Below are positions 14,784 to 64,000 of a DNA stretch of 64,000 bases, in pieces. The notes beneath the pieces are model-generated. The model was given only the letters and a program-made list of their open reading frames with translations. It was not told where the DNA came from and did no database searches. Location: assembly GCF_037975245.1 (NCBI RefSeq), contig NC_092570.1:18923418-18987417 (forward strand), written 5' to 3'. Both the position numbers and the translations under genes were made by a program. Within the stretch, counting starts at the first letter, position 1, and every line of letters starts with the position of its first letter. Source of the DNA: Apostichopus japonicus (taxonomy: Eukaryota; Echinodermata; Holothuroidea; Aspidochirotida; Stichopodidae).

Positions 14784-15138
14784 TTAACACCTATTATTAA
14801 AACACCCATTACTGTTTAACACCGTTGAAACACCCACTGCTGTCTTTACACCTTTGAAACACCCATCGCTGTTTTAACACCTATTAAACACCTAATGCTG
14901 TCTTAACACCTATTAAACACCCATTGCTGTTTTAACACCTATTAAACACCCATTGCTGTCTAAACACCTATTAAACACCCATTGCTGTCTTAATACCTAT
15001 TAAACACCCGATGCTGTCTAAACACCTATGAAAACACCCATTGCTGTCTTAACACCTATTAAACACCCATTGTTGTTTTAACACCTATTAAACACCCACT
15101 GCTGTCTTAACACCTTTGAAACACCCATTGCTGTCTTA
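14784..15138. repeat. 28-bp minisatellite, about 12 units
   Basis: The unit approximates AACACCTATTAAACACCC followed by ATTGCTGTCTT. Units differ by point changes (ATTGTTG, CGATGCTG, TTTGAAAC for ATTAAAC). It is intergenic, downstream of both genes. Confidence 0.9.
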
Positions 15139-25500: not shown

Positions 25501-28500
25501 CTGTTACACTTTTCAATATATTCAGATTTGAAAATCTGCTTTTTCTCTGGTATGCTCCTTTAAGACTAATGACGTGAGCTCCTCAGTGCAGGACTAAATG
25601 TTAATGTTTACCCATTTTTAATTTGTTTGTTTGTATAAATACCAATAAACTCAACCTAAAAAATATGTTCTTTTTAACTTTCTGAATGGTTTACAACAAT
25701 ATCATCAAAATTAATTTTTGTGCCATTAAAAGTCATCTTCTTAGGAAATGCGCTAATCTTTTGTATTCAAGTAATACTGAGTTCTCCTCTGGAAAGCAGT
25801 GCTTCTGCACTGAGAAGGACTACCCTCATTAAAGATGACAATAATAAAAAAAAAATTAAAAAAAAAGTCTAAGTATGCAAAGGCACCGGTGAGAGAAATA
25901 ATCAGGAACCCCAAAAATATATTATATTTCAGAAGTTTTGACAACAGCACCATTTCAATCTCAGGCTTTCACCACACTCTACACAAGATTGAGATCGGGC
26001 AGGTTGACAGAAGAAAACCTTAATGACCCCTAGGTCGTGACCCCTGACCTTTTCTTCCTCCTCCTGGTATCTATATTTCTCACCTTTTTGAGTTGATCTA
26101 TCCTGTCCATTTCCTCCTTCAGTTGCCTCATTTCTCTTTTCACAGTAAAGTTTGATGACTGTTTTTCCGTCGCAGACTTATTGGTTGAAATACTGAAAGC
26201 TATCAAAATGAAAAACAAAAAAGTAATAAAAAACAGGCATTTTTATAATCATTTTATAACAAAATTTATACCGAGAAGCGGAAAGCTTTTAAATCACTGT
26301 TCATCCGCTAAAATGTGTGTGTGGATGTACCATTTATAAATAATGGTAACAAATGAAGTATAGTATCATATATGAATGTTAATATCATACTACATTATAA
26401 TGATGGCTAATAAAAGTTTCATGCAAAATAAGTTTTGGCTAGGAGGATTAAAATAAGAACACAAGTCAACATTTTTGTTCCTGTGTTTAACATTGTAAAA
26501 AAGGCGTTCCTCTGTAAAGAGGCATTATATACCATATCAGATATTATAAAAATATTTTAATACTTAAAAGTAAACAAAAGTTGACTGAAGAACTATATAT
26601 GAATTTGAGAGCAACAGAAATGCAATGCTAAATCTGATGTGATAGCGTAAGCTCATTTTTCCAGTGCTTTTGTTAATTTGTTCTCTATGTATATAATCAG
26701 AAATGTACACTTAATATTAAAAATAAACATGAAAACGTAAAGATCTTAAAACAAACAAGCAATGCCTGAAACTAAAAACCTCTGACCTTTTTGAATGTGT
26801 TTATATATTTTTGTGGTTGTTATCATTAATGAACTGGTTTGTTGTATTAAATTAGCCATAAATAGGTGTGAGATATTTTATAAACAAGTAAAATGAACTA
26901 TGAAAATAATCCATCATCACTGGGTGTATCTGTAACCTGAAGGAAACCGTCACAAACATCCTTTCCTTGCAAATCGAGAATCTAACTCCATTTCACTCAC
27001 AAACCACATTCCTACGAGTGTTGCATCTGTAATTCACACCAACTACTAACGCATTTGCACCATTGAGTAGGTATAATTATCCTACCCAGTTAATGGACAG
27101 AGTTACAAGAAAAAGCAATAAAAACCTTGGTGAAAATCAAAACTTTGTCTTACTTAATATTTGTGTCACATTTCCACCATGCAGTATTTACAATTAATTC
27201 CTTTTCTATCAAATTTACATCATCACACCTCACATAGTGGCACCAATACTTAACCCAGTATCACATTACCAAAAGTTTCCAAATATTGATTCTGTCTCAA
27301 CCATATCATCAACCATTATCTCAGTTCAAAAACATTGACCATCCAAAGGCCTTTTGTTTCTTTTTTAACAAACTTCAAATCCTGGTACTTTGAATAATAT
27401 ATTTTGTTTCTTTTTTAACAAACTTCAAATCCTGGTACTTTGAATAATATATTTAAGTCCAAACTCACAGGAACAGGAAACCTGCAGCATTTATTACCAC
27501 CGGATTATGAGAGAACCCATAACCACCATATTTTGAATGTTATTTCCCCCCCCCCCTACCCAATCCCCTATATTTCTTTCTTTGTTTCCTTCGGATCCCT
27601 TTGGTTCCGTTTGGGTTCCTCATTTCTTTTTTCGTGCCTAGGTAGAAACTAATGCTCACCAGATCTGGGTTTGATGCTACCAAAGGCAGAGTCAGCGTAA
27701 GTTTGAGACGGAGGAGGAGGGTTCCGAGAGGATGATGGGTTTGATGACGCAGAAGAGGCGGTTGAACTCCGGCCAGAGGACCGGCCTCCCGAGTTCCTCC
27801 TCTCGTTCGCTATCGATGACTTCGGAGCGCCCGTGGTGGAAGCAGGGGGTCCTGTTTTAGTAGTTCGCTGTAAGACAAGAGAACACGATTATAATATTTA
27901 GAATGCATATCGAAATAGAATAATATAATTTACACAATGAATCAATTGTAAATGCAAACGTCAAAATATTTTTTTAGATGAACCTTTTGTAGATAAAGAA
28001 GAACCAACATCTAACCCTTCAAACTTACTTCAACATATTAAGGTTGGTTTAATTCCAGAGGATGAGATTTCAGTTTTTCATGGAAGGAGTGGCAGTATAA
28101 GAGGTACCGATGTGCTACACTATAGTCAAGAACATTTATATCAGTTTTTTTAATTTTAATTTTTTTGACTGTAGGATCCCTGGACATGGCTCTCATGCAG
28201 TCATTGCAAACAAGTTTAAAGATGCAACAGGGTTGTAGGTTAAAGTTCATCGGGTTCAAAAGTGGTACGTCCATCTCTACTTTCCCACTGCGACACCGCA
28301 ATATATTCCTCATACTTATTGTGCCAGAGTATTAGATGCTTGCCATATTAAACAGGTTTGTTTACCCCTATATTCCCCCATTTTGAGGTGGTTAACTTCC
28401 TCCAGTATCTAAAGTACTTCATTCCTCCAAACATTCCCCTATAACACCAATTGGTACATCCCATCTGTAGCAACGTTTGTGGCAAAACAGGTTTTGTTTA

Positions 28501-31500
28501 CCCGCATATAATCCCCCAGTTTTGAGGTGTTAAATTCCTCCAGTATCTAAAAATCTTCATTCCTCCAAACATTCCCCTATACCACCAACATCATCCCACC
28601 TGTACCAGTGTTTGAGGGAAAATTCCGCCTCACGCCCCATCCCACCCCACTATACCTTGTTACACAATGGTACATTCTTGATGCTAAGTATTAAAGGTTT
28701 GTACCTTTACATAGATTATAACTTATAATGGTACCTTCATGTTGCTAAGTATTAAAGGTTTGTATAATGGTACATTCTTGTTGCTAAGTATTTAAGGTTT
28801 GTACCTTTACATAATTTATAACTAAAAATGGTACATTCTTGTTGCTAAGTATTTAAGGTTTGTACCTTTACATAATTTATAACTTATAATGGTACATTCT
28901 TGTTGCTAAGTATTAATGGTTTGTACCTTTACATAATTTATAACTTATAATGGTACATTCTTGTTGCCTTTACAAAGTTTATAACTTATAATGGTACATT
29001 CTTGTTGCTAAGTATTTAAGGTTTGTACCTTTACATAATTTATAACTTATAATGGTACATTCTTTTTGCTAAATGTTAAAAGTTTGTACCTTTACATAAT
29101 TTATAACTTATAATGGTACATTCTTTTTGCTAAATGTTAAAAGTTTGTACCTTTACATATTTTATAACTTATAATGGTACATTCTTGTTGCCTTTACAAA
29201 ATTTATAACTTATAATGGTACATTCTTGTTGCTAAGTATTAAAGGTTTGTATAATGGTACATTCTTGTTGCTAAGTATTAAAGGTTTGTACTTTTACATA
29301 ATTTATAACTTATAATGGTACATTCTTGTTGCTAAGTATTAAAGGTTTGTACCTTTACATAATTTATAACTTATAATGGTACATTCTTTTTGCTAAATGT
29401 TAAAAGTTTGTACCTTTACATAATGTATAACTTATAATGGTACATTCTTGTTGCTAAGTATTAATGGTTTGTACCTTTACATAATTTATAACTTATAATG
29501 GTACATTCTTGTTGCTAGGGTATTAAAAGGTTTGTACCTTTACATAATTTATAACTTATAATGGTACATTCTTTTTGCTAAATGTTAAAAGTTTGTACCT
29601 TTACATAATTTATAACTTATAATGGTACATTCTTGTTGCTAAGTATTACAAGTTTGTACCTTTACATAATTTATAACTTATAATGGTACATTCTTGTTGC
29701 TAGGGTATTAAAAGGTTTGTACCTTTACATAATTTATAACTGCATCTTTCTGTTGCTGTTTGACCTTCTGTTTCTCTTCTTCCTTCTTACGTCTCGCCAG
29801 CTGGGCTTCGTGTCTCTCCAGGCTGACTGCGCTGCCACCTATCGTCCCTTCCGAAGACTTTCGCACCGGTCCGTTGGGCACAGATTTGGTAGGTCCGCTG
29901 GAGAAACATTAAAGTCGACATGGATGAAAAGATATTCGAAAAGAACGATAATGAAGAAAAAAAAAAAAAAAAGGACAAATATCAGATGATATCACTGTAA
30001 TTTTATCTCTAGGTCAGGGAAACACCTTTAATGATAAAAGGCCAAAGGTAAAGTGGCTGCGAATTCAAGCAAAACAGAGCACATTTTGGACAGTATTGTG
30101 ACTTGGATGATCTTTCGCACACGCTGTGAACACCATGCAAAGATGTACTTCATAAACACTGGCATCGCTTCATATGCATTGTACGTTTCTCAATGTCGTG
30201 GTCTGTTTTAGCAAATCTAGAAAATTTTTGTGAGTGACTGACTGGACAGTCTCATTAACTTCCCAACCAGGTGAAAAGCATAAAACAGTTACAGTGCAGA
30301 GATTGGTAACTTGGGTGATGGATGCTTGGGCTTGCAAATGTAAAAGAGAAGACTGGCAACATTTTCAAAGTGAGTTTTCAATTTTAGCATTGTCTCTGCA
30401 TTCTTAAGATGACAGTGCAGTAGGCGAAGCATCTTTGGCTTTAGACAACAAGCTCGGCAGATATTTTCATACATTGCTACAATCACCACTGCTCTTGATA
30501 ATTACCGAAACACCTAACTGATACTAGCATGCATAAAAACAAACATGGACTGAAGAGCGTTCTCTAGTCCCAGGCACTGGCTTTAAAATTCCACGTCAAA
30601 TGAAACCCCAAAAGGTAGCTAGTTGGTCGTCAAAGATTCAAGTAGCTGGTTGCGTTCGTAACCTGACATTACGTCAACATTATGTGAACACCACTACAGT
30701 TAAAGTTTGGCCACATTGTCATAACACCCATTTCCTAGTTCTAGCCTACTTTGCGTATATGAATCAGGGCTAATTTGTATATTTCACTAACTATCTATAA
30801 CTTATCAGCTACCTAACCTTCCCGTATCAGAAGCAATAAGTTATGGCATTTTTGGGGGGGGGGGGAACCAAAAAAGCACACATGCAATTTTGGTTGAGTC
30901 TGATAAAAAGGACAATTGAAAAGCAGGAGACACTCTTTGTAAAATACGAAACATCCTTAACAAAACCAAGCTTTAGACATTTTCAGTGCAAGACTGTAAT
31001 TTGCTGCAAGCACTCAACCAACGGCCTCACCGAAGGAAGCAGTCAATGAAAGAGACTGAGTCACACTTATTATTAGTAATTAAAACCACATGAGAGTTTG
31101 GGAAGATATGGAATAAAGTGTTTAGCATATCTTGTTTGACGTCAAACTTCGTGGGAAAGGGTAAAGAGAATGAGGAAGGGATGGAGGGGGGAGGGAAGGG
31201 GGAGGGAGGGAGGAGGAAAGAGTTTGAGTGGAATAGTAAGTAAAACTAAGAAGGGGAAACTAACTTCTGGACTGGATCTCGTAATGATGATGTTGAAGTT
31301 GCTCTTCTACCTTGATTCCTCAGTTGACTGTTTGGGAGGTTGGAAAAAGAGGATTGTTATTAAAAACCGAAACAGGGATAAAGAAATATCAAAATAAAGG
31401 AATAAATAAGAGGTGAAGAAGGAGGAAACTGATCTCCCTATCAGGAGAATAAATAAGGAATTTATGACAATCTTTAGAGATTTGGAAATGAAACAAAGTG

Positions 31501-40500: not shown

Positions 40501-43500
40501 GTGGGTGCAGTGAAAAGCTTTACCAGATCTGAAAGGATGTTTTAATATCTACAAGTAATTAAAATTTGTCATCCATTTTCCATTTTATATCAGTGTTAAT
40601 GGTGATGTCTGTTTACCCGAAGGGGACCCAAATGGTCTTAAAGGTTTGTGACTTTTTTCAATACTTTCAAAATTTCTCATTTTTTTTTAGAAAAAAAAAA
40701 ACATTTGTATCAGAGCAGAAAAACTATTTTTAATACTTTCTCATACTCACTTGGATGTAGTGTTTCCTTTCGCAGTTTGGTCTGATGAAACTGAAGGTGT
40801 AGAAGCCGTTCTCCTGACACAAAGGAAGAATAAAAGCATGTACTTTACTTAATAAACTACTGAAATCATCCAAAAGTAACCTTTCTGAATCATTTCCGTT
40901 TTTCTCTTCCACATGCACCGTTAGTCATCAAACATTAGTCTGTTATTACTCTCTCTCTCTCTCTCTCTCTCTCTGTGACTTGAGTATTTTTTGGACAATT
41001 CATTGAAAATCTGAAAAGCACTTATTGACTATTTTATTACAGTTTAAATTTTGTACGTTCAATTCTTCATCCCTGCTATCCTCCTTTCAAGAAAAGGTTA
41101 ATAAAAGTACAAAGTTTTTGGTGACAATTAAGGCCTTCTCACACGACTTTTACATTGTCAGTTAGCCAAAGAAGTATTCATTGGTCCAACTTTTCATCTT
41201 TCTACTTATCATGTCTACTTTTTCTCTTTGTTTCTTCTAGCTGTTTCTTTCATTCTACAAATTAAGACCCATTTTTGAGCAAGTTGATGTTCTTGTTACT
41301 TCACAGATAAGATTTCTGAAGGAAATTACAGCTTCAGGAAAAGTGGACCACTATGACATGTCTTTCTTCTTTTAAAATGTAACAACTTGAGAGTGATTAA
41401 ATAACAAAGCTATTATATCAAATAACTAGTAATTAAATAACGAAGCTAACAATTTCATAGGTCATCTTCTTTCGACAATGACCAACAATTCTGCATTCCA
41501 ACCAATAACCTTTTATAATCATTTCTGAGTGACACTGCGTCACACTGTGACCACCCGGCCGACCTACGTACCTCTGAGCCACGCTGTTACTCCTTAAGGC
41601 ACCGTTGGTCGTTCCGTTCGCTTGCTTGGTGACCGCCGTTCTGGAAGAGTCCGTTCTCCGCCTCTCACTTAAAGGTTTACTGTTCGCCTCATTTGCAGCA
41701 TTATTGTTCACCACTACAACAGCTTCTTTCACCACTGTCGTGCTAATCACTGGCATATTCTGTGGGTTATTGGGAGGGGTCCTCAGTGGGTCGACACTTT
41801 GCCCATTATTAACTTGTCCATTGGTCGATACGCTTGTTGGACCATTAGGTATGGAGCCATTGGGTGTGGTAACAGGCCCATTCATGTGGACCGTTGGAGG
41901 TGCCGCTGAGGGGCTGTGTACACCGTTCACGTGCGGCTGTATGTGGCTCACAGGGTGCGGAGCTAAATCGCCCCTACAAGGGGATAAATCGCCCCTACGA
42001 GGGGATACCTCGCCTCTGTGAGGAGATACCCTTTGAGGTGATTTGGCTTCCTCCATTTCCTTCCGTAATCTTTCCTCCCGGGCTCTTCTCTTTTGGTCTT
42101 CGTAATTTGTTTTCTGTCTCAATAACTCCTGTATGGGTCAAAAATTAAATACTTGATTTAAAATAGAAGGGAAAAATGTTAGATTTAGTCAAATTATTGA
42201 CCTGCTAACCATGGTTACTCACATGCACAGAGGATTTGGTAAAACTGTGAGAAAGAAGGACTCTTCTTTTCAGTTTCCCTACAGTACCATCTAAACTGTG
42301 CCAGTATAACACTTGTATATCTGTTCCTTTCAAAGACCCCCTTAACACCCCCCCCCTCCACCCTCCCCAACTTCACTCACACACCATCCATACCAACTCC
42401 TTTCCCAACCAAAATTTTGTTCAAATTAACTTATATCCGTAAAAGAAGTCCTGATATGAAAACATTCGGGGGGAAATAAAAAACAATTATGCCCTTTCTT
42501 AAACTATTTGTATTCATGTTTAGCTTTAAAAAACCTGTATTAAGTATGGCTTTATCTAATACATGGTGGCACTCTTCAGCATTTTAACTTTGGGAACACT
42601 CTTGCTTATATCTGTGGAGGGATCAGAAGAGGGCAAACAGTACATGGGTGGGGGGTGTAGGGTTAACATTCGGAAAATGACAATGGTTGAATCTAGACGC
42701 AAAACAAAAACAGACAGGACTTGAAGACAGGTCTTCAAAACAATGTACCACTATTTTAAACTGGGCGAAATGAATGTGGATATTAAATGCATTACAGATC
42801 ACAAGATGGAGCAAATGTGTCGTCCGAAATTATAAGAAAAACAACAAAATGATAGGGATCACATTTTTAACTGTGTGCTCTCTTCAGAGGAAAGAAGAAA
42901 GATGGGAAGTTGTACGGTGGATGGGCAAACAGATGGTGACACAACACGTTTTGTTTTAAGAAGTTTGGTTTATATCATCCGATCCTGAACGTCAGAATTA
43001 CTGACTGCTCTTTTTCTTATTTTTCACTTGTGTCAAAATTTTGTATTCAGGAGAGAAAATTTTAACAAAAAAGTACTGAAAAACCCCAAAACTAAAAAAA
43101 TCTGAATCCGTCTGACACCAAATGGTACTAAAAACTTTCAAATGTTAGTTTGTTTAGAACAAAAACTGCTTCCCTATTAAACTGATCACATCTGTTTTAA
43201 CAGTTACATTAATGACACCTAGCATATGATATACATAAACAGCAGTCAAGACTCAAGCAGTCTGGTGAAATGGCCTGACTTGGCTCGAAGGTTACACTTC
43301 ACTTCAGGCGATAATACGGTATGTATCTCATTTAGAATTCATGAGAACTTTCCAACTTTCTAATTAACCGTTCTCTCGTCATGACAGAATATAAACAGAC
43401 GCATCCTCGTATGATGTGAGACTCGACATAGAAACCTTGAAATCTTAAATAATGGGTAATGATTTAGAAAAACAGAGCATCACCATGGTGATGTAAACTC

Positions 43501-61500: not shown

Positions 61501-64000
61501 CATACACGTACGGACTGCAGAGTATAATACATGAACAGCTATAACATTATTACTAACTTCTCTTCTAATCTGATAGAAATCATCTTGTCTGAATTCCTTA
61601 GAGGACCTTGTTTTCACTTGGTTAACCATCTTGATTAATGTCAGCTGTTCCATGAATAAATTTCGTAATCCATACTCGTATTATATATGCATGATACAGG
61701 GCATCATAACTTCTTTCTAATAATTCTTCTTTTTTTTTTACAAAATCTGACAGGGTGGAGTATTTTGTGTGTTATTTTGCCTTTCAATGGCCTAGAGCAC
61801 TGCACAGACAAACTTTGAGAATGTCAGATTTCACACAAGATGGATTCCTGATAGGAAACATCATTAATGTAAGTGTACAGTTTCACCATTGAAGCAGTGT
61901 TATTGGCTGGGTTGTTCATAAGAAGCTCATTACAAGTATCAATTTTCTTGATTCAGTTCCTTTTGGTGACAAGGTATTTAACTCTCTTCCTTATTTTTCA
62001 GCAGCTAGCATTCTAGCTTTGTCAAAAAGGTCTTGCCAAATTACACCAATCCTGAAACAACTGCATTGGCTTCCTGTTACTTACAGAATTGTCTTCAAGC
62101 TAATTGCTGATTGACTACAAGCCTTTTCACAGTGTGGTGCCTTTATATACATCTATCAGCTTCAAGATTATATTCCACCTCGTAACTTACGTTCAAATCA
62201 TAAGTTTCTTCTCATGGAATCTAAATCCACCCTTCTCGAGGGGGGGGGGGGGGAGAGAGAGAACAGAAGGGGGTATAGAATAGCTTGTTTTCAAGCTGAT
62301 TGCTGATTGACTACAAGTCTTTTCACAGTGTGGTGCTTTTTATATACATCTATAAGCTTCAAGAATATATTCCAACTTGTAATCTTCATTCAAATGGTAA
62401 GTTTCTTCTCAGGGAATCTAAATCCAACCATCTTGGGGGGGGGGGGGGAGAGAAGTTCTTCAGTTGCTGCACTGAGATTGTGGTATATGTAACCACTTGA
62501 AATCAAGATGGCTAAGAGTGTCTCCTCCATTAAAAAGCAGCTTAAAACTCAGGTTATGAGACAAGCTCTCACAGATACTTTACGGGAATTTTGTGGGAGT
62601 TCATTGGTTTTCGCACCTTGAGCAACCCTTTCCTAGATGGATACCTGGGCATTGTAAATCTTTGTTAGTGTTATCATTATTATTTTTGAATGTCTGGTAG
62701 AATTTACAGTAAGTTCCAGTCTGATATGTACAGTATTCCATTTGGCTAAAAGTCCATATTCACCATTTCAAACTTTGAAACTCCAAAACATGTTCCGTTG
62801 GGTATCTATGAAGGACGATACTGACCTGCAAGTGGGTCGATGGGGGCGCTGTGCGGAAAGGTTACCAATTTCGGTACAGTAGGTTGCGGTACACCGAAAT
62901 GAACATGTTGTTTGGAGACAGGTAAGTGAGGAATGAAGTAAATTATACAAGATCCACGGTGCCATGAAAAGTCTACCATAACAAAAGTCTGAAGATATTA
63001 GCTCCAAAATACTGACTGAACCTTCGACAAAAGTTTGAGTGTTCTCAGAATGAGATCAACCGAAGTAGCAGTCCTTTGCAACAGTCCTTGCATTATCATT
63101 TAACCTGTCACACACATGCATGCTATAGTGTATCTAATGCATCTTCTTGCAGACATTCTGCAATTTTATGTTTAGCATATATAGCCCACAATGCCACATG
63201 GGACCATGGATCTAAAATGTGGCTTCCTTTACATAACCCCTTAAAACTTGAACTTACCTGCGCTGGGGGATTCTCTAATGGGTTTTGGGATACATTCAGC
63301 TCCTCTAATGTCTCTATCCTTCTGTAAGACGGCGGTAAAATTGTGATCTTGTTACAGGATAAATCTAATTTGACAAGGTTTAAATTGGAAATTTCTGCAT
63401 GAAGAGAGAGAGAGAGAAAGAAATGGAATGAGCAATAAAAAGACTGAAAGAATCTACTTTATAACTTGAGGTAAAACATAATATATACATCAGAGATCAG
63501 CTACAAGTACACCACAAAGAACAATATCCTATTTTAGTCTGTTTCCATGGTAATGAATAACATGAAAAGCAACTGATCAGGACGGCACACAATGCTTTCA
63601 ATCGCATAAGAAATTACTTAACATGAAACAACAACTTCTTTGATCATCTTTTTCTAGCGTACATTGTATCAATGCTATCAAAGCCATTCAGTGCTGCTGT
63701 GTAAATGTTCACACAAAAATCAGCTTTCAGAAAACATCACACAGTGTCACAAAGTAGCTTAAAGTGTTCTAAAATATCAAAACATAGACTTCATAGAATT
63801 CATTTCAGAAAAAAACTAAGGTTAAAGCCACCATCCACCCACTGTGTGGTTGAAAGGGACCTGTTTTAAATCCAAAGTCACCACTTTGAAAGTCGTGGAC
63901 AGTTGGGCAGCATCTTTACACGCTCACGACCACAAACTCATCAGAAATTTTGGCAGTTTTTATTTAGGACAGATAGTAATATAGGTTCCCTATTACCTTC
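19466..64000 (-). CDS. LRCH: LRCH-family protein (LRR + calponin homology), 3' part of gene
   Basis: Fifteen minus-strand exons join in one frame: 63395-63258, 56704-56571 (3' end tentative), 53975-53913, 50779-50636, 47430-47319, 46487-46212, 42128-41572, 40813-40751, 36999-36919, 29897-29723, 27867-27660, 26199-26084, 20759-20625, 20264-20187, 19585-19466 (TAG). The sum is 2400 nt, 799 visible residues; upstream LRR exons lie past the right edge. Visible order: a last LRR (LVKLDLSCNKI, NPLENPPAQ), the family motif RGKIHIFKFL, the DSGY...GDKRWSSSE motif, a long Ser/Pro-rich linker with two basic helical stretches, FGSIKPRS, a FTVKREMRQL helix, then one CH domain (about 686-795) with GVVLCHLINIVRP and AKCRRNVDNF. 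LRCH proteins are cortical scaffolds: vertebrate LRCH1 binds DOCK8, LRCH3 acts with DOCK7 and septins, and fly LRCH acts at the actin cortex. The C-terminus lacks the membrane segment of some LRCH1 isoforms. The specific paralogue cannot be assigned. Confidence 0.9.
19720..19860. repeat. C/T-rich low-complexity tract beside the LRCH last exon
   Basis: Runs of CCCTCC and CCTCCC (G/A-rich on the minus strand) lie 135-275 bp upstream of the last exon's acceptor. Simple sequence; a possible G-quadruplex former in the transcript. Confidence 0.5.
20187..20264 (-). CDS. LRCH: LRCH exon, middle of CH domain
   Basis: Acceptor TTTTGTTTCAG, donor CCTAAG/GTGAGG, 26 codons. Encodes NKLTAAKCRRNVDNFVKSCQ and MAGVPK, corresponding to the AKCRRNVENFLEACRKLGVP of vertebrate LRCH. 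Confidence 0.92.
20625..20759 (-). CDS. LRCH: LRCH exon, first part of CH domain
   Basis: Acceptor CCTTTTCGTAG, donor GGATCT/GTGAGT, phase 0 both sides. Encodes HIETKLKMKLSEDIPGELMN and GVVLCHLINIVRP, the diagnostic CH-domain core of LRCH proteins. Confidence 0.92.
20760..26083 (-). other. LRCH: LRCH intron before the CH domain
   Basis: Contains the candidate 72-nt exon at 24757-24828, a C/T-rich tract at 22540-22640 and C or G runs at 24403 and 24511. A patch at 22980-23470 is more complex and GC-richer than its surroundings but has no supported exon; an internal promoter there is only a possibility. Confidence 0.5.
24757..24828 (-). CDS. LRCH: Candidate LRCH cassette exon, 72 nt
   Basis: Acceptor TTACACCTCAG, donor AAGAAG/GTAAAA, phase 0 both sides, 24 codons with no stop. 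Begins SQQSNILSNVVSSEDVKSVQ and ends QMKK. Its neighbours already join as QLKK-HIETKL in line with the family, so it would be an alternative insert, not a constitutive exon. Both ends resemble real sites, but no homologue is recognised. Confidence 0.4.
26084..26199 (-). CDS. LRCH: LRCH exon, helix preceding the CH domain
   Basis: Acceptor CATTTTGATAG, donor AAAAAG/GTGAGA. Encodes NFTVKREMRQLKEEMDRIDQ and LKK, matching the FTIRRKMEQMREE...EQLR helix immediately before the CH domain in LRCH1. Phase 1 in, 0 out. Confidence 0.88.
27352..27451. repeat. Perfect two-copy tandem duplication, 50 bp
   Basis: The 50 bases at 27352-27401 are repeated without change at 27402-27451 (unit begins TTTTGTTTCTTTTTTAACAA). 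Identity implies a recent event or an assembly artefact. In the LRCH intron between the exons at 26084 and 27660. Confidence 0.95.
27660..27867 (-). CDS. LRCH: LRCH exon with Ser-rich tract and FGSIKPRS motif
   Basis: Acceptor CTTGTCTTACAG, donor AGATCTG/GTGAGC. Encodes a Ser-rich segment (SSTASSASSNPSSSR), NPPPPSQTYADSAFGSIKPR and S. FGSIKPRS corresponds to the FGLKPRS motif of vertebrate LRCH. Phase 0 in, 1 out. Confidence 0.88.
28350..28617. repeat. Two-copy tandem repeat, period ~134 bp
   Basis: AAACAGGTTTGTTTACCC, CCTCCAGTATCTAAA and TTCATTCCTCCAAACATTCC occur in both 28350-28483 and 28484-28617. Copies are diverged and differ by small indels. Confidence 0.85.
28665..29742 (-). repeat. 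~60-bp minisatellite containing LRCH exon end and splice donor
   Basis: About 17-19 cores of GGTACATTCTTGTTGCTAAG (plus strand), mostly in units near 60 bp, some truncated. On the gene strand each full unit carries GTTATAAATTATGTAAAG/GTACAAAC: the last six codons (VINYVK) and 5' splice site of LRCH exon 29723-29897. The exon end is itself the terminal unit. At least ten copies keep the exon end and GTAC exactly or nearly so. Confidence 0.92.
29723..29897 (-). CDS. LRCH: LRCH exon with charged helix; donor shared with minisatellite
   Basis: Acceptor TGTTTCTCCAG, donor GTAAAG/GTACAA. Ends QLARRKKEEEKQKVKQQQKD then AVINYVK, matching the LRCH segment that ends EAVLDFVK. The last six codons and the donor are the first unit of the ~60-bp tandem array that fills the start of the following intron. 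Reading through the donor meets an in-frame TAA after four codons. Phase 2 in, 0 out. Confidence 0.85.
31170..31226 (+). repeat. G/A-rich tract with G-quadruplex potential
   Basis: GGAGGGGGGAGGGAAGGGGG is followed by AGGGAGGGAGGAGG: more than four closely spaced runs of three or more G on the plus strand, which is the template strand of LRCH. Confidence 0.6.
32996..33277. mobile_element. Foldback / MITE-like element, 282 bp
   Basis: The left arm begins CATTATGAGTTCAACC and continues TTAGCCCTCGCTTGG...ATACCCGG...GGGTATCACATGATCT...AAAGCTGTCTTCCT. The right arm carries the reverse complement in mirror order and ends GAACTCGTAATG. Arms are about 110 bp with small mismatches around a ~50-bp centre. 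No ORF. Long inverted arms without coding capacity fit a non-autonomous DNA transposon. No clear target-site duplication seen. Confidence 0.8.
35575..35690. repeat. Degenerate ~18-bp tandem repeat
   Basis: About six units around CTTAATCCCAAAGGGAAAG, with GAATTCC and AGCTTAATTCC variants, in the LRCH intron. Confidence 0.65.
36919..36999 (-). CDS. LRCH: LRCH linker exon, 81 nt
   Basis: Acceptor TTATCTGTTTCAG, donor CTAAC/GTGAGG, phase 2 both sides. Encodes GKKVVRRGTVGVTPTDSTNK, a basic stretch. Symmetric, so a potential cassette. Confidence 0.72.
37000..40750 (-). other. LRCH: LRCH intron, ~3.7 kb
   Basis: AT-rich with T/G low-complexity sequence (TTTTG repeats near 37938-37970). The 120-codon plus-strand ORF at 37380 is T-rich and hydrophobic by composition. 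Nothing recognisable. Confidence 0.45.
40751..40813 (-). CDS. LRCH: LRCH linker exon, 63 nt, Ser/Thr-rich
   Basis: Acceptor CTTTGTGTCAG, donor ATCCAA/GTGAGT. In the phase set by its neighbours it encodes RTASTPSVSSDQTAKGNTTS. Another frame (ENGFYTFSFI...) is also open but does not match the phases. Symmetric and skippable. Confidence 0.7.
40949..40974. repeat. (CT)13 microsatellite
   Basis: Uninterrupted CT dinucleotides about 135 bp upstream, in gene orientation, of the acceptor of the LRCH exon 40751-40813. Confidence 0.95.
41572..42128 (-). CDS. LRCH: LRCH linker exon, 557 nt, largest exon
   Basis: Acceptor GACCCATACAG, donor GCTCAGAG/GTACGT. Starts with a charged helix (EDQKRRAREERLRKEMEEAK), then three tandem SPxRG[ED] units from a 21-nt DNA repeat (41962-42030), then an Asn/Pro/Thr-rich low-complexity region (NGPVTTPNGSIPNGPTSVST) and a basic end (SERRRTDSSRTAV). 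Probably disordered. Phase 0 in, 2 out. Confidence 0.85.
42129..46211 (-). other. LRCH: LRCH intron, ~4.1 kb
   Basis: No exon or element recognised. C run near 42350 and G run near 45940. ORFs present are short, without splice support. Confidence 0.45.
46212..46487 (-). CDS. LRCH: LRCH linker exon, 276 nt, Pro/Thr-rich
   Basis: Acceptor CGATCTAG, donor ACAAAG/GTGAAC, 92 codons, phase 0 both sides. A Gln/Glu/Arg-rich helix (EEARQLAERASQQKEHRQQR) is followed by a Pro/Thr-rich segment (PTVTPRPTPITTPTSDVDPF). It is markedly GC- and CpG-rich against its introns. The opposite-strand ORFs here are shadows. Confidence 0.8.
47319..47430 (-). CDS. LRCH: LRCH exon with DSGY...GDKRWSSSE motif
   Basis: Acceptor TTTCTGCTCCTCCAG, donor TCAGAG/GTATGA. 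Encodes MADELAYVHDRMGEL and GADSGYIEGDKRWSSSE, which matches the DSG...GDKRWS motif found after the LRRs in vertebrate LRCH proteins. Phase 2 in, 0 out. Confidence 0.85.
50636..50779 (-). CDS. LRCH: LRCH linker exon, 144 nt, Pro/Ser-rich
   Basis: Acceptor TCTACTTCAAG, donor GCTAG/GTATCA. Encodes PNWLFIKPPSEGPPSLTVKS, later LFYPPGSPPEKGSIA. Phase 2 in and out, so also a possible cassette. An alternative frame is open here too, but only this one is phase-consistent. Confidence 0.65.
   Translation of the reverse strand, partial: TKLALHQAALGGSSITHSEISYFPRNYFRTEQSVLPSWVSSREGFYR
51189..51500 (+). repeat. Dispersed-repeat-like segment with AAAGTGCCTTGCCCAAGGAC core
   Basis: A GC-richer block in the LRCH intron between exons 50636 and 53913. 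It contains GAGGCAGTGGAGCAAAGTGC, CCTTGCCCAAGGACACAACG and CCGCTTGACCACTCTTCTTG, words I associate with widely dispersed non-coding repeats in invertebrate and fish genomes. Boundaries are approximate. The long plus-strand ORF over it (51189-51539) is a by-product. Confidence 0.45.
53913..53975 (-). CDS. LRCH: LRCH linker exon, 63 nt
   Basis: Acceptor AAATATTCAG, donor GACAA/GTAAGT, phase 2 both sides. Encodes PEVVTKEEHVSVQTETEVED, an acidic stretch. Symmetric length means it can be skipped without a frame change. No family homologue recognised; support is splice sites and phase. Confidence 0.65.
55250..55400 (-). mobile_element. tRNA-derived SINE-like fragment
   Basis: Read on the minus strand: TGGCGTGGTAATAGTTTCAA (A-box-like), GCGGGAGGTCATGGTTTGAT then CCCCGGCC (degenerate B box, GGTTTGATCCC), followed by a non-tRNA body (ACTCCAGGGTTTTCCC) and an A-rich end near 55250. 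The order of tRNA-like head, unrelated body and A-rich tail is that of a SINE. Not a functional tRNA: no acceptor stem or anticodon arm can be folded with confidence. Confidence 0.5.
56571..56704 (-). CDS. LRCH: LRCH exon with RGKIHIFKFL motif
   Basis: Acceptor CTTTCTAG. Encodes LCIRGKIHIFKFLSKKAM, matching the family IC-x-KGKVHIFKYL sequence that follows the LRRs, then QRRPPFNHQ (compare DRRPLGF in vertebrate LRCH). The 5' splice site is uncertain: CAACG/GTTGGT (used here) gives the phase 2 needed by the next exon, but the frame stays open to 56429 and weaker phase-2 GT sites exist farther on. Confidence 0.7.
58531..58560 (+). repeat. (GTGGG)n pentamer repeat, G-quadruplex-prone
   Basis: Five consecutive GGGGT units. 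On the plus strand this gives at least five runs of four G spaced by single T, a strong quadruplex pattern. Confidence 0.85.
60440..60800. other. Unexplained GC-richer island, possible transposon relic
   Basis: Composition changes sharply against the AT-rich intron. On the minus strand one frame reads MVRPPPLQNVQDVFIHKEIK before a stop. On the plus strand, GLFDTYRAARGNTLEELLIA is followed after a stop by further protein-like sequence. Neither has splice sites placing it in LRCH, and I do not recognise a family. A decayed mobile-element gene is the likeliest reading. Confidence 0.3.
62001..62690 (+). mobile_element. 3' end of a CR1/L2-like non-LTR retrotransposon (LINE), decayed
   Basis: The plus-strand frame from 62001 reads ILALSKRSCQITPILKQLHW then LPVTYRIVFKLIAD and a stop at 62112. 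LHWLPVxxRIxFK is the hallmark after the reverse transcriptase domain of many jockey/CR1/L2-type LINEs. Downstream fragments IPPRNLRSNHKFLL, SSVAALRLWYM and SVSSIKKQLKTQV match, in order, the usual P-x-RxLRSSxxxLL, FSVAAPRLWN and SFKKxLKT ends. The tail GGGCATTGTAAATC...TTATCATTATTATT resembles a LINE 3' terminus. Stops, frameshifts and an internal duplication make it a relic. Confidence 0.75.
62085..62450. repeat. Direct repeat within the LINE relic, ~197-bp spacing, with G runs
   Basis: CAAGCTAATTGCTGATTGAC near 62096 recurs as CAAGCTGATTGCTGATTGAC near 62292. Both copies run through CTTTTCACAGTGTGGTGC and TTTCTTCTCA to end in 11-13 G. Only after the second copy does the LINE frame resume. 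Confidence 0.8.
63258..63395 (-). CDS. LRCH: LRCH exon with last leucine-rich repeats
   Basis: Acceptor CTTCATGCA/G, donor GCGCAG/GTAAGT, 46 codons, phase 0. Encodes NLVKLDLSCNKITILP and LEELNVSQNPLENPPAQ, two LxxLxLxxN-type repeats ending in the PPAQ that closes the LRR array in LRCH proteins. At the extreme right edge, GAAG/GTAATAG (donor at 63996/63997) may mark the end of the preceding exon. Confidence 0.88.

Follow-up and report, generated by a model that had tools for sequence, protein, structure and literature searches.

A human minisatellite reportedly provides multiple splice donors to a transcript, in the words of a title by Turri, Cuin and Porter from 1995 (Nucleic Acids Res 23:1854); the transcript is said to be the interferon-induced 6-16 (IFI6), and its repeat unit to be about 12 bp long and close to the donor consensus. 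In human genes within segmental duplications, splicing can be altered by internal tandem repeats that sit at exon-intron boundaries (PMC2812944), and in C. elegans minisatellites are found near alternative exons (PMC4039745). Here we describe a minisatellite from the sea cucumber Apostichopus japonicus, in a window of 64,000 nucleotides, which overlaps the predicted exon-intron donor of an LRCH-type gene: its first unit consists of the last 19 nt of a coding exon followed by GTACAAAC, and the phases fit. Like the minisatellite of the Turri title, the array bears predicted splice donor sites of a transcript, and like the repeats of PMC2812944 it is located at a predicted exon-intron boundary. 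Among the matches listed in a search of the literature on donor-bearing repeats none was this LRCH array, which does not prove absence. The array is most likely a by-product of repeat growth and not a proven splicing switch.

The exon, its gene and the array

The features that define the locus, in window coordinates, are the following.

41572–42128, minus strand: preceding predicted exon, donor CAGAG/GTACGT, phase 2 into the exon at 29897
29723–29897, minus strand: LRCH-type coding exon of 175 nt ending ...DAVINYVK; open frame, acceptor ATGTTTCTCCAG/C, phases matching the neighbours
29714–29725, minus strand: predicted real 5' splice site AAG/GTACAAACC, G+1 at 29722; phase-0 fit to the acceptor before 27867
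28665–29742, minus strand: minisatellite of 19 units, mostly 61 bp, ~1.06 kb
29372–29741, minus strand: two adjoining 185-bp blocks of three units each (29741–29557 and 29556–29372) that differ at 4 of 185 positions
27868–28664, minus strand: rest of the intron, ending CTTGTCTTACAG
27660–27867, minus strand: next predicted exon, phase-0 start (RTTKTGPP...)

Four predicted exons (to 46212; 42128–41572; 29897–29723; 27867–27660) join in frame into 403 aa with no stop, in a chain whose first exon has an uncertain start and between whose members more exons may lie; the frame-check run carried one base extra at the 3' end of exon 27867–27660. That the four-exon chain is open, with matching phases, supports AAG/GTAC as the donor. 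Elsewhere on the same strand, an LRR stretch at 63123–63458 matches PF00560 (LRR_1) with 24.8 bits, exceeding its cut-off of 20.6, and an exon at ~20.5–20.8 kb that codes for half a CH domain reaches 17.5 bits against PF00307, under the cut-off of 26 (E 0.0049). The LRCH family combines LRR with a C-terminal CH (PMC2923620), and the presence of both on one strand fits this family, with a common transcript as the putative source. The genome searches turned up no second LRCH copy, two other matches being at chance level (E 5.4 and 9.5), nor did they reveal a second haplotype of the locus in the one assembly. The exon's own region gave no meaningful match to solved structures or Pfam, and a literature text search for the LRCH motif peptides found no paper. 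A second array lies within LRCH coding sequence, at 41964–42030, where an in-frame 21-bp tandem repeat encodes SPxRGD-like peptide repeats.

When the array is cut at the exon-phased boundary, its units measure 61 bp (twelve), 63 bp (two), 41 bp (two), 39 bp (two) and, at the far end, 59 bp (one); a tandem array with units in the ~10–100 bp range is a minisatellite, and TRF scores for overlapping sub-arrays, which reach 1053, rule out a chance origin. The first unit reads AGTTATAAATTATGTAAAG/GTACAAACC...CATTATA. Its exon part, the final 19 nt of the exon (29723–29741), is common to the array unit, and 44 nt of intron follow, the intron share being 42 nt in the 61-bp units. With the exon itself counted, the exon-derived piece is present in 17 of the 19 units. 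The 22-mer GTTATAAATTATGTAAAGGTAC has 11 exact copies, one at the exon end and ten in the intron, and AAAGGTACAAAC has 14, one being the predicted real donor, with its G+1 at 29722, and the other 13 decoys; since 13 of the 18 downstream units hold it exactly, most units contain an intact donor-like site. The exon piece recurs 16 times downstream: in 13 of these copies AAAGGTAC is intact, in one it is replaced by AAAAGTAC, and in two the GT has gone through a 20-bp deletion. Two further downstream units are without the piece altogether. The original prediction had placed a ~60-bp array of ~1.06 kb at 28665–29742, with the exon end and AAG/GTACAA as its terminal unit, a series of donor copies behind the real donor and at least ten units in which the 22-mer runs into GTAC, and the unit cutting, TRF and exact counts bear out this description.

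The array sits inside a single predicted intron, whose downstream acceptor is an ordinary one, in a gene model built from DNA sequence, and takes up 57% of that intron's 1,855 bp. Its length is likely to be sound if the assembly is the A. japonicus assembly of PMC10344927, because that assembly was made from HiFi reads. The two 41-bp units (29210–29170 and 28986–28946) have in common a 20-bp deletion with a linked A-to-T change, and the two 39-bp units (29249–29211 and 28762–28724) a 22-bp deletion; this pairwise sharing points to duplication of shortened units inside the array. We also considered the 41-bp units as spliced-out units, but their junction is AAAGGCAAC and not AAAGCAAC, and they are thus ordinary deletions. 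The sequence GTGTAACAAGGTATAG (28650–28665), on the array's far edge, resembles the decayed donor part of another unit, a likeness that may be due to chance; the AAG/GTATAG within it scores 0.90, slightly above the array donors, on the matrix used for donors below. Other repeats in the window are a 29-bp tandem array of ~12 copies at 14795–15138 and a 197-bp repeat of 1.9 copies at 62089–62453 with an open frame, which we take to resemble the end of a non-LTR reverse transcriptase.

Probable origin of the unit at the exon-intron junction

The unit looks local, not dispersed. A 202-bp piece of the array, the exon-end 24-mer and a spacer 25-mer were searched against 671.58 Mb in 35 contigs, by a procedure that passes over very common words and reads gaps as N, so that repeats and gaps may have been missed. 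All eight matches of the 202-bp piece fall in the array, as do all 19 of the spacer 25-mer at up to 3 mismatches, for which the control gave none. The exon-end 24-mer has 20 genome matches at up to 3 mismatches, 16 of them in the array (15 of 15 with 0–2 mismatches, one of five with 3); the four outside the array each have 3 mismatches, and the reversed control gave seven matches in all. The flank beyond the array matched only itself. A dispersed satellite or a transposon-carried array was rejected, since these searches found no copies of the unit elsewhere apart from the four 3-mismatch matches of the exon-end 24-mer. With the unit found at one locus, the array comes, as far as the search reaches, from no dispersed family.

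The reading that we favour, with a probability of roughly 0.58, is a local tandem duplication at the LRCH junction that grew to 1.06 kb by slippage or unequal exchange and stayed near neutral, its decoys being rarely used. The initial duplication would have taken in the last 19 nt of the exon together with ~42 nt of intron; unequal exchange or slippage would then have enlarged it to a minisatellite, and this growth, presumably in the direction from exon to array, would have copied the donor 13 times into the intron. The peptide at the exon end, DAVINYVK, resembles what we take to be the LRCH motif DAVLDFVK (EAVLDFVK in the original prediction).

The view that the exon was the seed, which the original prediction had also advanced, is likely on account of frame, phases and the presumed LRCH motif, yet two observations do not sit easily with it. 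Divergence shows no gradient with distance from the exon across the 18 downstream units (Spearman rho -0.04, p 0.89), in a test on raw substitution counts that ignored gaps and left shortened units uncorrected. The 19 shared nt have a GC content of 16% versus 55% in the rest of the exon, and among 1126 windows of that length taken from four exon stretches of LRCH not one has so low a value, a control that includes a few intron bases at the ends near 46.2 kb and 27.87 kb; G/C occupies the third position in one of seven codons of the shared stretch versus 57% of the other 51 (binomial p 0.028). One possible cause of this low GC is overwriting of the exon by array sequence. Because of the missing gradient and the AT-rich shared 19 nt, a simple model of seeding and outward growth fits poorly.

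The two directions may both have been at work, the exon first seeding the array and then being homogenised with it. The unit that adjoins the exon has the same sequence as the fourth, and the spacer type beside the exon is a minority type found in these two of the 19 units only; since the first unit equals the fourth, inside the duplicated 185-bp block, exchange has reached the exon junction.

It is also conceivable, although we judge it unlikely, that the array came first, as an AT-rich palindromic minisatellite in the intron, one unit of which replaced or converted the end of the exon together with its donor. The skewed GC and third-position values just given favour such a replacement, as does the exon copy, which equals the array consensus exactly over 19 nt, and a phase-0 AAG/GTCAAA upstream in the exon at 29764 might be a former donor. 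However, random replacement would not be expected to yield a peptide like DAVLDFVK or to keep frame and phase, and the codons of I, N, Y and K are AT-rich in any case.

Decoy donors, folding and the choice of splice site

Use of any of the 13 decoys would lengthen the message by 63 to 1018 nt and bring in one and the same in-frame TAA, four codons on, which agrees for every decoy with the stop foreseen in the original prediction. Because a working gene needs the first site, some feature must favour the real donor. The ordinary explanation for the choice of an exon-bounded donor is exon definition, and the real donor would win in this way as the sole donor abutting exon sequence. A second help may come from folding, if the decoys fold with an intronic arm just upstream in their own unit while the real donor stands without such an arm. 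Occasional use of a decoy would yield an mRNA with a premature stop, which would be lost, and the array would be close to neutral, tolerated as its decoys are rarely used.

The arm can be seen in a representative palindrome.

29656–29689, minus strand: 34-nt imperfect palindrome GTACC...GGTAC round the first decoy donor

The left arm of this palindrome belongs to the intron and is missing before the real donor, where the exon stands; in the models, a decoy can pair with the GUACC upstream in its own unit. As RNA, the 34-nt hairpin folds at -6.5 kcal/mol (z -2.21, with 7 of 200 shuffles as good), for a stretch that was chosen by eye. Two whole units did not fold more stably than their shuffles (z 0.46 and -0.40). 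A DNA hairpin of the unit was likewise considered and rejected, being no better than shuffles (z -0.27). Among the 14 identical sites, local folding makes the real donor the cheapest to open in nine of 12 settings; in the remaining three it ranks second, fifth and fourth. Placing the unit spacer upstream of the real donor raised its opening cost from 3.46 to 6.26 kcal/mol, and behind 100 shuffled exons the mean was 4.05 kcal/mol (sd 0.44). The real donor, at 3.46, is itself harder to open than the region's median 11-mer (2.55), and three decayed sites (AAAAGTAC, AAAGGCAAC) are more open than it is (2.63, 2.23 and 1.96). Taken as models, these values modestly suggest that the decoys are more masked than the real donor, and that they are harder to open apparently because the units have an upstream complementary arm and the exon has none.

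A reading that we regard as quite unlikely joins the two themes in concerted evolution, whereby exchange among units would extend across the exon boundary and the array would rewrite the last codons of the conserved motif, which are AT-rich and equal to the array consensus, while the self-complementary arm of the same unit masks the decoys and leaves the exon-bounded donor more open.

About equally improbable, in our estimate, is that the array is a functional splicing element whose equal donors provide buffering, a sink for U1 or a poison-exon switch dependent on repeat number. Donor columns +1 to +8 are invariant (0 of 112 cells) over 14 complete downstream units, the four shortened ones being set aside, and variation clusters in the spacer, where 11 of 21 columns vary versus 6 of 42 elsewhere (Fisher p 0.002); the same early stop stands behind all 13 decoys, and the title of Turri (1995) names a human minisatellite with multiple splice donors. 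The column contrast is significant in its raw form, but spacer variants are shared by descent, so that neither cells nor columns are independent, and a by-eye collapse to about six events per region makes the contrast largely disappear. For this reason we make no claim of selection on the donors. The decoys are, moreover, weak sites (0.06), equal to the real one, and the folding models make them less accessible in most settings. The buffering, U1 competition and length-polymorphic switch that the original prediction had offered as roles for the array are unsupported, and folding leans modestly towards masked decoys.

The donor was scored with a simple human matrix, applied here to a sea cucumber gene, on which AAG/GTACAA obtains 0.06, the lowest of six assigned LRCH donors (the others range from 0.81 to 8.89), and the decoys, identical over the 9-mer, obtain the same. 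Nine of 126 GTs in exon and intron score higher, including two inside the exon (GACGTAAGA at 29790, 2.07; CCGGTGCGA at 29866, 1.03); as score alone is therefore insufficient, it is frame, phase and the presumed LRCH motif that single out the predicted donor. The exon site AAGGTCAAA at 29764 (AAG/GTCAAA) scores -0.90. That the exon ends elsewhere, the array being purely intronic and the donor reading mistaken, is the least probable of the readings. These higher scores speak for it, and hand counting puts 29866 and 29764 in phase 0 as well. Against it, a donor at 29790 would not stay in frame with the next exon (again counted by hand), 29866 would leave an exon of 31 nt, all three drop the stretch with the presumed LRCH motif, and the full exon is open with both phases fitting.

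Significance and comparison with splice-boundary repeats

The locus offers a natural test of donor choice by the splicing machinery: the 14 copies are alike over at least the 12 bases AAAGGTACAAAC, and use of any of the 13 decoys among them would introduce a premature stop into the message. Should the population contain length variants, they would amount to a ready-made dose series. The overlap also raises the question of whether coding sequence can be altered by conversion from a repeat array that extends into an exon.

Compared with known systems, the locus looks like a further case of splice-boundary repeats, special in having coding sequence in its unit and possibly masked decoys. Unlike the minisatellite of Turri (1995), which by its title provides multiple donors, the donors here are predicted from sequence; and unlike the unit of IFI6, which is said to be ~12 bp and near consensus, the unit here is 61 bp long, has a weak donor and includes part of a coding exon. 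The repeats of PMC2812944 vary between paralogues and make novel introns, whereas here there is one locus with its copies in one intron. A further parallel is intron gain by tandem genomic duplication (PMC4974935), which likewise involves a tandem duplication within a gene, and the segment duplicated here contains AGGT; unlike in that process, the DNA sequence shows no sign of a new intron, a small one being conceivable, and the copies lie inside a predicted intron.
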